This document shows positions 3,555-6,864 of a stretch of 64,000 nt of DNA, in pieces (the first letter of the stretch is position 1; each line of letters opens with the position of its first letter). The notes under the pieces were generated by a model. The model was not told the DNA's origin and ran no database searches. It worked only from the letters and a program-made list of their open reading frames with translations. The position numbers and the translations under genes are program-made. Origin of the DNA: Nesterenkonia aurantiaca (lineage in GTDB: Bacteria; Actinomycetota; Actinomycetes; Actinomycetales; Micrococcaceae); NCBI RefSeq assembly GCF_004364585.1, contig NZ_SOAN01000010.1, positions 1 through 64,000 on the forward strand. The letters are read 5' to 3'.

Positions 3555-3580
3555 GCGTGCCCGGACTCACCCCCCTGCGT

Positions 3581-3648
3581 TGAGGGGCTGATTCTCCGAG
3601 CATCTCATGCGGATTCAGGGTGTAACTGCTCGGTACTTCCGCCCCTCA
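3581..3648. repeat. Palindromic repeat element, copy 1
   Basis: Imperfect inverted repeat with arms TGAGGGGCTGATTCTCCGAG and the complement ending GCCCCTCA. Inner arms CCGAGCA and TGCTCGG flank a core that includes CTCATGCGGATTCAGGG and GTAAC. It shares arms and core with copies at 5152-5233 and 6778-6844. It lies 28 bases beyond the 3' end of the mycothiol-enzyme gene (stop at 3677) and 26 bases beyond the tRNA terminator, so it could separate the two transcripts. Confidence 0.85.
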
Positions 3649-3676
3649 GCAGCTGTCTAGCGCGGTGACGCGATGC

Positions 3677-4465
3677 TTAGAACGGGACCTGGGTGGTGAG
3701 CAGTCCCGCAGCGGGTGCCCGACCGCTGGTGGCGCGGCAGAACTCGAACGGGTCCATTGAGATGGGCTCTCCGTCCCTGCGGTGGCCCCCGCCTGCGTTC
3801 CCACCGTGGCCGAACGCCCAGTGCCCTCCCGCGGGTCCGCTGAGCTCGAGGGCGACGGGCCTCCCGTGACGCTGGGCCCACTCGCGGACGACGTCGTCGA
3901 GGATGACCCCTTCGTGGTCGGCCGTGGCGACCATCGGCACGCCCGTGGCTCGGGTGATGTCGATCCGGTGCATGAACGGGTCGCGGGTCAGGATCACGTC
4001 GAACAGGTAGCCGAAGGTCCATCGCCCGTCGGTCTCCTCCTCCATGGTCTGGTTCCGCAGGAACCTCGGTGCGCGGAGTCGGTTGCGGACAGCCCGTGGG
4101 CTCAGCCTCCGGTATTCCCGGGCGACCTCCTCGGCGGTGAGTGCTGCATTCTTCTCGACCTGTAACGCGGTGAGTGCGTCGATCTGCAAGCCGCTGCGGC
4201 GTCTTGCACGCAGGGTGGCCGTCGCCTGCTGGCGGATCATCTCGGGCACCGAGGCCGCCATCTGGACCATCCCCAGCATGTGCCCGGCCATATCTCGGAC
4301 CTCCCAGCCGGGGCAGTCGGTCGGCGCCGCCCACTGCTCGGGCGTGAGGCGGTCCAGGAGATCGGCGACGCGCGCGTACTCGGCGGCGGCGAGCTGGGTC
4401 GCGAGGGTGCGGTCCAGCTGGGGGAGGCGGGCTTCCCGGGGCAACTCTTGCTGCTTGGTGCTCAT
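3677..4465 (-). CDS. Maleylpyruvate isomerase family mycothiol-dependent enzyme
   Basis: A 262-residue member of the MDMPI/DinB-like family, which use mycothiol as thiol cofactor; the reaction of this member is unknown. The N-terminal four-helix metal domain is marked by LTPEQWAAPTDCPGWEVRD followed by AGHMLG, whose His is a typical metal ligand. The C-terminal part ends in the usual DPFEFCR...GLLTTQVPF. AAGGAG precedes the ATG and overlaps the TAA of the TetR gene; the two genes are 9 bases apart and form one operon read from the TetR promoter. The mycothiol gene mshC lies at 11.5 kb. Confidence 0.85.
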   Translation of the reverse strand: MSTKQQELPREARLPQLDRTLATQLAAAEYARVADLLDRLTPEQWAAPTDCPGWEVRDMAGHMLGMVQMAASVPEMIRQQATATLRARRRSGLQIDALTALQVEKNAALTAEEVAREYRRLSPRAVRNRLRAPRFLRNQTMEEETDGRWTFGYLFDVILTRDPFMHRIDITRATGVPMVATADHEGVILDDVVREWAQRHGRPVALELSGPAGGHWAFGHGGNAGGGHRRDGEPISMDPFEFCRATSGRAPAAGLLTTQVPF

Positions 4466-4474
4466 GACTGCTCC

Positions 4475-5092
4475 TTAGGGCAGTGGGTGGTTGTGGACTC
4501 GAGGCAGACCGAGGTCGTCGGCCAGCATGTCGATGGCACGGTCGAGCAGTTGAGCCCAGCGGTCTCCGCCGGGATCGTTGGCGTGTTGAGAATCCACCAG
4601 GCCGCCTACCAGCGCGGTGAACAGGTCGAGGTCCTCCTGTGCCGTGAGGCCGTGACGAATGAAGATCTCGCGAGCGAGGTCCAGCGTTGCGACGGCGGGG
4701 GCGTAGTTCTGCGCGCTCGGGGTGAAGCCCGGGATCGTCCGCAGGTTCATCAATTGATGGCGGGGGAGGTCGCTCACGGCGAAGTCGAAGAAGCTGCGCG
4801 CGAGCAATCTGAGCGCCTCGCGTGCGTCGTCCGGGACCTGCTCCCGCATGGACTCGAACTGGGTGAGGCATTCGACCCAGGCCTGCCCGAACATGGCGTC
4901 GTAGATCGCGTGTTTGGATCCGAAGTGCGTATAGAGCGACGGCGCCCGCATGCCGACCCGCTCGGCCACCCCGCGCAGGGTGATCTCCGCAAGCCCCAGC
5001 TCACGCGCCATGGACCAGGCAGCAGCGAGGATCTCGAGCTGCGTGGCCTCACGCCGTTCGGCCTGCCTATCACGCGTAGTTCCACCTAACAT
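4475..5092 (-). CDS. TetR/AcrR family transcriptional regulator
   Basis: A 205-residue repressor. The helix-turn-helix is at about residues 18-62 (ILAAAW..., then ITLRGVAERVGM and SLYTHFGSK), followed by an alpha-helical ligand domain with the conserved-looking end LFTALVGGLVDSQ. It is the first gene of a two-gene operon with the mycothiol-dependent enzyme. A perfect inverted repeat CCTAAC-ATA-GTTAGG covers its start codon, the expected position for autoregulation. Ligand unknown; probably the substrate or inducer of the partner enzyme. Confidence 0.88.
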   Translation of the reverse strand: MLGGTTRDRQAERREATQLEILAAAWSMARELGLAEITLRGVAERVGMRAPSLYTHFGSKHAIYDAMFGQAWVECLTQFESMREQVPDDAREALRLLARSFFDFAVSDLPRHQLMNLRTIPGFTPSAQNYAPAVATLDLAREIFIRHGLTAQEDLDLFTALVGGLVDSQHANDPGGDRWAQLLDRAIDMLADDLGLPRVHNHPLP

Positions 5093-5099
5093 AGTTAGG
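5085..5099. promoter_or_regulatory. Putative TetR autoregulatory operator
   Basis: The perfect palindrome CCTAAC-ATA-GTTAGG overlaps the ATG of the divergent-facing TetR gene (start codon at 5092-5090). On the minus strand TGGACA and TTGAAT spaced 18 bases form a plausible -35/-10 ending 7 bases before the ATG, so a repressor bound here would cover the transcription start. Confidence 0.65.
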
Positions 5100-5151
5100 A
5101 TTCAAGCACCGGTGCGAGCGGACTGTCCAGGCTTCGGGTCCGCATCCCCAC

Positions 5152-5233
5152 CCCACGTTGAGGGGCGGATTCTCCGGGCATCTCATGCGGATCTAGGGCC
5201 CAACTGCTCGGTACTTCCGCCCCTCAACGTGGG
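5152..5233. repeat. Palindromic repeat element, copy 2 (most complete)
   Basis: Arms CCCACGTTGAGGGGCGGA and its perfect complement ending in CAACGTGGG enclose inner arms CCGGGCA/TGCTCGG and a core nearly identical to copy 1 (CTCATGCGGATCTAGGG). The right end is 11 bases beyond the stop codon of the broken lipoprotein gene (5245-5247). Confidence 0.88.
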
Positions 5234-5244
5234 AGGGGCTTGGC

Positions 5245-5886
5245 TCAGCCGTCGTTCGCGGCCCACTGCTCCGCGCAGGTGCCACCGGCCGGATTCTGCT
5301 CCCAGTCGGCGCGTGCCTGGGACTGCCGCCATAGCTGCTTGTCGACCTCTTCCTGGGACTGTCCGGTCCTCACAAGAGTCGAGGTCTCGTTGCCTTCCCA
5401 GCAGGCGGTGTGCGCCTCCAGGTCTTCCCACTCATCGATCTGCAGGTAATCGGGGTGGCATAACGGATCCGGCATCGTTCCGGTGCCGTCCCAGTCCTGC
5501 GGCCAGCCGATCGGTTCGGCGCCGTCGTTGTGCGCTGCCTTCGCGGCCAGCGCCTCGTCGTCCGCACAGTGCAGATGGAAGACTTCATCGCCGTCGTCAT
5601 CCTCGGGCGAGATTTAGAAGAACTCCACACCGTCGGTGCCAATGATGAGCTGCTGGCCCCCCGGGTGGTTCGCATCGGCATCCTCGGAGCCAGGCGCGTC
5701 AGCGGCCGGTGCAGCAAGCTCATCATCGCCCTCGCCCGCGGCTGCCTCCTCGGACTCGCTGGAACTCGACGCCGGCTCCTCCTCGGTGACCTCGGCGGCA
5801 GGATCCCCGGCCGCGCAGGAGGCGAGCAGCAGGGCCGCACCGAGGGCGGGAAATACAGGCATCCATGTTTTCTTCAACATGATCAC
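5245..5886 (-). pseudogene. Lipoprotein gene interrupted by an in-frame TAA
   Basis: The minus-strand frame runs from GTG at 5886 (or ATG at 5880) through a signal peptide with lipobox LLASC, an acidic Ser/Glu/Ala spacer and a short conserved-looking segment (HPGGQQLIIGTDGVEFF). It then meets TAA at 5616-5614. The same frame continues without shift for 122 more codons (ISPEDDDGDEV, then HLHCADDEALAAKAAHNDG) to TGA at 5245. The downstream part has several Cys and Trp and looks like a folded extracellular domain. One nonsense change, or a sequencing error, separates the halves. Family not recognised. Weak ribosome site. AT-rich upstream DNA is shared with the ftsW remnant. Confidence 0.7.
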
Positions 5887-5942
5887 ACCCTACGCAGTTA
5901 CAACTATTTAGTGAACAACAATCGCTAATCTATTGGTCCGGC

Positions 5943-6800
5943 TTGGACGGAAAGAATCTCAACGTGGCGCTGATGGTGTTGTCCTGCGTCCTGCTTGCCC
6001 TGATGGTGTTCACGCCGCTGGGGGCCGAAGCGGATGGCAGCACGAATAGGATCCTGTGGGGTCCCATCACCGGTCAGCCCTCCGAGGTGGCGCAGCTCGC
6101 GCTGGCCCTCTGGGGCTCGGCGGTGCTGGCGCGCAGAGTCCAGGGGGTTCCAGGTGTCACCCACTGGTTGTTCCCGTTGGTGGCTCCGGGGGTGCTGGTG
6201 GTGCTCTCGCTGGTCCTGCTGGGCGGGGATCTGGGCACAAGCTTGATCATCCTGGTGATCGTCGGTGGACTGCTGTTGACCGCCGGCGTCGCCGCACGCC
6301 GTCTACTGCTCACCGCCGGCGTCGCCGTGTCTGTGGTGGTCCTGTTGATGTGGACCACGCCCTACCGGATGATGCGCGTCTCTGCCTGGTAGCGCCTGAA
6401 CTGTGATCACCCTCCGGCGCCCTGCCAGCAGTGGGAGCGGGGCTTCGAGGCACTCACCGCAGGAGGATTCCGGGGCGTGGGGCTGGGCGAGTCCCAGCAC
6501 CGGTCGGACCTCCCAGAGGCAGAGCATGACTTCATTTCCAGCATCCTCGGCGAGGAGCTGGGTCTGCTGGGGGCGGCCGTCGCAGCCTGGATCGCAGGTC
6601 AGGCGTCTCTCAATATCGGCATGGTCACAGGCCTGCTTCCCGTGGCCGGAGTGCCGCGGCCCTTCATCTCCGCAGGCGGTTCGGCGCTGACCTGCGGGCT
6701 GCTCGGCGTCGGGGTCATCCTGAACTTTGCGCGCGGTCAGCTGATGTCCCGACACGCGGGAACACCCCCACACGCGCTGAGGGGCGGATTCTGCGAGTAG
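5943..6800 (+). pseudogene. FtsW/RodA-like gene remnant
   Basis: SEDS-family glycosyltransferase fragments in one frame. The first block contains QPSEVAQLALALWG and GGDLGTSLIILVIVGGLL, and reaches PYRMMRVSAW, where FtsW normally has PYR..R. It is followed by TAG at 6390-6392. The frame then continues (QQWERGFEALTAGGFRGVG, then GLGESQHRSDLPEAEHDF and IGEEL-like ILGEELGLLG) to FISAGGSAL near the end. The N-terminal helices of a complete FtsW are missing, so the gene is 5' truncated as well as stopped. The last codons and the TAG stop come from repeat copy 3. Not functional as a full flippase or polymerase. Confidence 0.8.
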
Positions 6801-6844
6801 ATCAGCCTGTTCAGGGCCTAACTAGTCGGAGAATCCGCCCCTCA
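6778..6844. repeat. Palindromic repeat element, copy 3
   Basis: Arms TGAGGGGCGGATTCTGCGA and TCGGAGAATCCGCCCCTCA with a core containing TTCAGGGCCTAAC. The core matches copies 1 and 2 less well, but the outer arms are the same. It overlaps the last 22 bases of the ftsW-like remnant and supplies its stop codon. Confidence 0.85.
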
Positions 6845-6864
6845 ACGTGAAGGGTGGAGAAGGC

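Follow-up and report, generated by a model that had tools for sequence, protein, structure and literature searches.

Palindromic repeats lying between bacterial genes have mostly been viewed either as mobile DNA in decay or as hairpins indifferent to sequence. The hairpins of ordinary terminators have, to our knowledge, no sequence common to different loci, and hairpin terminators without a U-tract have been described in mycobacteria. The attC sites are imperfect palindromes past a gene stop, with a variable centre and the ends RYYYAAC ... GTTRRRY in that order. Among dispersed repeats, the GTAG-tagged REP/REPIN and the CGTC-tagged REP are hairpins of 20-40 bp with the tag at one end; the GTAG families possess RAYT transposases, and REPs are found for the most part at 3' ends and in the gaps of convergent gene pairs, in many cases with <20 bp separating them from the stop codon (PMC3733652). 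The YPAL/RU-2 and ERIC repeats of enterobacteria are dispersed palindromes, 127-168 bp in length, which lie between genes and can form stem-loops; YPAL shows target duplications of 3-26 bp, recent empty and filled sites, and targets that span or adjoin dyad symmetries (PMC2229807). Bacterial MITEs, such as Correia/NEMIS and RUP, carry terminal inverted repeats, which measure 24 bp in Correia/NEMIS (PMC2229807).

The window analysed here is a stretch of 64,000 nucleotides from Nesterenkonia aurantiaca (contig NZ_SOAN01000010.1, positions 1 to 64,000), in which the first-pass annotation had noticed three copies of a palindromic element with shared arms. We recovered all three, with the limits first given for them off by a few bases and those of copy 2 including flanking stem (Table 1); the flanks of this copy lengthen the palindrome by CCCACG/CGTGGG. 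All six arms fit the pattern TGAGGGGCGGA with at most one mismatch and are its only six matches in the window, where, as first remarked, there is no further copy. As single strands, copies 1, 2 and 3 fold far better than shuffled sequences (z -3.4, -6.3 and -7.3, respectively), with none of 200 shuffles folding as well. An Rfam search of the window recovered tRNA only, the element having no match above the gathering score.

Table 1. Positions of the three element copies and adjoining features in the window
Feature	Position	Strand	Context
Element copy 1	3578..3651 (74 bp)		between tRNA-Leu terminator and MPI-like gene (- strand)
Element copy 2	5156..5229 (74 bp)		15 bp past stop (5245) of lipoprotein gene
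Element copy 3	6775..6847 (73 bp)		orthologue in 9/9 clade genomes
Inserted gene pair (MPI-like, TetR-like)	3677..5092	-	bounded by copies 1 and 2
Spacer, copy 2 to stop codon of - strand gene	5230..5244		G-rich on + strand, i.e. C-rich in sense, family-typical

The gene names used throughout (MPI-like, TetR-like, lipoprotein, FtsW/RodA-like and so on) come from by-eye recognition of translations. The MPI-like/TetR-like pair is present in the related genome G018 too and missing at this locus in G020 and deeper relatives. Six relatives (G011, G015, G020, G021, G022 and G042) hold one element where the window has copies 1 and 2, and these two copies are 88% identical; hence, they are probably descendants of a single ancestral element. 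Of the gene ends first named for the copies, the stop inside copy 3 is an unsound one, because it is part of an apparently degenerate FtsW/RodA fragment. This FtsW/RodA-like gene (5943-6800, + strand) is interrupted both by a stop near 6392 and by a shift of frame, and is apparently a pseudogene; it has a paralogue elsewhere in the window's own genome (G000:C5:124700-125567), and G018 carries a longer version. The lipoprotein gene (5245-5886, - strand), whose stop at 5245 is the gene end given for copy 2, is cut short in the window's genome by an early stop near 5614, and its orthologues in G020, G011, G042 and others are uninterrupted, with about 200-230 aa. In G017, the stretch from the tRNA-Leu gene to copy 3 (G017:C36:4536-5990) comprises about 1.4 kb devoid of any called gene, without similarity to the content of other species.

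The whole genome (2.95 Mb in 25 contigs) contains 22 full copies, including the three in the window, and searches of relatives upheld the suggestion of a dispersed family: about 15-27 copies occur in each of nine Nesterenkonia genomes of one clade, i.e. the window's own genome and eight sister species (seven of the 23 other Nesterenkonia covered by one search, and G042). These nine are each other's nearest relatives by nucleotide identity of the window genes. The element is a 74-bp imperfect palindrome with arms of about 26 bp, the consensus CGTTGAGGGGCGGATTCTCCGAGCATCTCATGCGGTTTTCGGCCCCAACTGCTCGGAGAATCCGCCCCTCAACG and the ends CGTTGAG ... CTCAACG. Two inverted half-sites, of approximately the form GTTGAGnGGCkGAwTCTnCGrsYA, flank a small hairpin of variable sequence, the spacing between them being fixed. 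The arm spacing is exactly 66 bp (74 bp in total) in 68 of 77 matches from several species and 65 bp in seven; the two matches with other lengths are false. None of 14 genomes from the order's other families holds a copy, and when 84,980 species were scanned with the pattern, matches came from Nesterenkonia and one Streptomyces contig, and from nothing else. The Streptomyces match (L083) differs in its ends and core and looks like chance or an ordinary hairpin. No match to the element was found among phages, plasmids and the viral contigs of IMG/VR, and a phage or plasmid origin was rejected on this ground; a search of papers on Nesterenkonia or Streptomyces for similar repeats yielded none that fits.

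Gene context was established with a home-made codon-usage gene caller (a simple script) run on stretches of the genomes. The claimed association with gene 3' ends holds across the family, the element lying 7-31 nt past the stop codon. A gene 3' end falls within 60 bp (median 17) on 84 sides of distinct copies, as against 12 sides with a gene start (p 2e-14), and 34 of 74 elements lie in convergent junctions versus 42 of 260 background gaps measuring 80 bp or more (p 4e-7); these counts pool orthologues, which are not independent, and the p-values are therefore optimistic. At least one copy departs from the 3'-end rule: that at G000:C3:237935-238008 (L117) has a called gene start on either side, at distances of 36 and 38 bp. 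At tandem sites the orientation of the core agrees with transcription in a ratio of 21:7. The spacer from stop codon to element contains 56% C and 14% G, compared with 37-39% C and 30-36% G in control post-stop sequence; as it is C-rich and G-poor, the left flanks abound in C and the right ones in G (56% G in the first 10 nt of the latter), such that the stem can lengthen.

Flank searches showed most sites to be common to G017, G018 and G020, and the positions of the element reflect mostly vertical inheritance, not new insertion. In 45 orthologous pairs, the arms are identical at fractions of.93,.89 and.89 against G017, G018 and G020, respectively, as compared with.85,.74 and.75 for the cores and.80,.77 and.69 for the flanks, and the length (74 bp, rarely 73) is altered in just two pairs. 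Across these alignments, the arm sequence and the length of the element are shown to be under purifying selection. Among 178 half-sites, positions 5, 9, 10, 11 and 13 are invariant, and positions 8, 12, 15, 19 and 22-24 variable. Variation in the left arm is nearly independent of that in the right (21.38 versus 21.09 matches of 26), with a weak coupling (permutation p 0.0135), and covariation in the alignment (A1) barely exceeds that of shuffles. Since the arms vary almost independently, each is kept as a sequence half-site and not merely as a stem; a purely RNA-paired stem was rejected on account of this near-independence and of the covariation close to that of shuffles. The central 22 nt fold better than shuffled versions (mean z -1.9, with 57% of cores passing the 5% level), and this could result from selection or from template-switch correction of quasi-palindromes.

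At three junctions (L116, L111 and L123b), where the clade carries the element, the element-free genomes G003 and/or G009 have ordinary GC hairpins, specific to each locus, flanked by the same genes. Within the clade, most sites without the element still hold part of an arm (L110 in G018 and G020; L112 and L118b in G018), and a shrunken element, CGTCGAGGGGCGGTGCCCCTCAACG, lies between convergent genes at G000:C6:205027-205051 (L121, L223), where G017 and G018 have a full one. These remnants and the shrunken copy indicate that loss proceeds, at least often, via internal deletion. In some cases the outer arm, together with the spacer, is repeated in tandem (units of about 20-23 bp) at the border of the element, on either side and in different species (L148, G017:C2:~142200; L167, G017:C1:~132000; L004, G000:C5:183250-183280), and slippage, stalled forks or a nuclease may be their cause.

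Like REP/REPIN, the element is an intergenic palindrome of 3' ends and convergent pairs, and is likely transcribed as a hairpin; unlike them, it has 74 bp, a fixed length and CGTT at both ends, and there is no conserved hairpin within each half. The Y1 (IS200/IS605-like) transposase, PF01797, is absent from all nine element-bearing genomes and was found in one of 30 genomes of the genus; membership in the RAYT/REP families was rejected for want of this transposase in the clade. With YPAL/RU-2 and ERIC, the element shares a dispersed, long, intergenic stem-loop palindrome, yet it is half their size, occupies old shared sites without clear duplication, and belongs to another phylum, with no sequence relation found. 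It would work like the intergenic palindromes of the REP/YPAL type (PMC3733652, PMC2229807). By the tests that define them, it is neither a REP/RAYT element nor an attC site nor a canonical intrinsic terminator; it constitutes a new family, limited to one clade and under unusually strict constraint, outside every family tested.

It is unlikely that the family represents MITEs, i.e. non-autonomous transposons with 26-bp terminal inverted repeats, mostly fixed and in some cases exapted as terminators. The inverted arms (the only one seen of three MITE hallmarks tested), uniform length, dispersed intergenic copies with homologous cores, patchy losses between species and want of coding capacity agree with such an origin, and recall Correia/NEMIS and RUP; unlike these, however, neither a TA duplication nor a partner transposon was found for the element, which is kept in place by selection. 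In this genome, exact arms are confined to the 74-bp units, a single border repeat and a single shrunken copy; it therefore has no element of greater length with these ends, and no autonomous relative sharing them was found in it. Filled sites show no visible target duplication, and as the sites without the element mostly keep arm remnants there is no clean empty site; the closest paralogues are only 88% identical, near-identical ones being absent; and orthologous copies are constrained long past any insertion. The initial idea of REP/MITE-like mobile DNA is therefore the weaker one, given the missing RAYT and autonomous copy, the want of a clear target duplication or of near-identical paralogues, and the mostly vertical sites. 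The original copying mechanism seems largely inactive today, and traceable gains of copies adjoin old ones, together with gene inserts. Such inserts bear on a further and rather improbable explanation, under which a recombinase or homologous recombination moves single genes bounded by the element, making it a functional counterpart of attC. Indeed, like attC it is an imperfect post-stop palindrome with a variable centre that sometimes bounds single genes: copies 1 and 2 enclose a gene pair where relatives have one element, those at C3:74563/75121 enclose a TfoX-like gene where G017, G018 and G020 hold one, the window's genome has one element behind a certain tRNA gene where G017 and G020 have two around different genes, and a 1.67-kb insert touches the element in G017/G020. 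Nevertheless, its ends, GTT...AAC, reverse the box order of attC, its length is fixed, and it is found at core gene junctions; no match to the integron integrase (TIGR02249) exceeded the cut-off in 30 genomes of the genus, and integron cassettes were rejected for the missing IntI and the wrong box order. Gene turnover affects 8 of 20 element junctions versus 3 of 21 control junctions (p 0.09), by which a turnover hotspot is rejected; the excess is suggestive, and a role as a recombination port is possible while non-significant against controls. Homologous recombination or plain intergenic insertion would also look similar. In G011 (L224, G011:C4:182400-185500), a tRNA-type terminator plus element occurs twice at a distance of about 2.4 kb, which looks like duplication of the two as one unit.

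An equally improbable proposal casts the copies as sites for a chromosome-organising protein, on the principle of MatP/matS or ParB/parS, tolerated only at gene ends. Two half-sites conserved independently in sequence at a fixed spacing, about 20 copies per genome, and the location of 19 of 21 copies at 0.55-1.25 Mb from dnaA (G020 co-ordinates) are in line with it; however, the regional clustering, suggestive by eye of an ori/ter-linked distribution, is non-significant once neighbours are merged (p 0.23) and was rejected as such, no binding protein is at hand, and the core hairpin and 3'-end placement would be left unexplained. Least probable is a combination in which a putative clade-specific protein, docking on the two half-sites at their fixed spacing, would end transcription at gene borders and also open a port for gain and loss of single genes: a dispersed cassette system in the manner of attC, with no known integrase, on an actinobacterial chromosome.

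We favour, at roughly even chances, a reading in which the element is a bidirectional terminator or 3'-end hairpin; within one clade it would have taken the place of ordinary terminators, and a putative sequence-specific factor would also read its arms. The transcript of the element would fold into a long hairpin that ends or protects the mRNA of one or both flanking genes, and the half-sites, as DNA or as a stem, would additionally be bound by the factor. The terminator role is suggested by the 3'-end position, the C-rich spacer and the replacement of outgroup terminators; the earlier proposal of exapted bidirectional terminators agrees with position and replacement, and the role itself is an inferred one. 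A GC-rich hairpin does follow the stop codon, as in canonical intrinsic terminators and in the U-tract-less ones of mycobacteria, and it would suit both strands; no U-tract was found directly after the stem, where the flank is G-rich, and a terminator scan did not flag the elements, although the outgroup hairpins are likewise poor in U. Also counting against the favoured reading, besides the copy between two gene starts, two copies follow tRNA genes already equipped with their own terminators, and some relatives lost copies by deletion without obvious replacement. Unlike ordinary terminators, the element is conserved in sequence and length across loci and species, and this strict conservation of the half-sites and length is explained neither by the terminator nor by the REP/MITE idea. 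As the arm letters and the fixed length are conserved far more strictly than a terminator needs, a putative protein probably reads the element too.

What emerges is an element family that is old, inherited in place, and under selection for both its sequence and its precise length at about twenty loci together, a constraint that points to a trans-acting reader. It also offers a tractable small-genome case of a repeat family taking over from ordinary terminators across a lineage.
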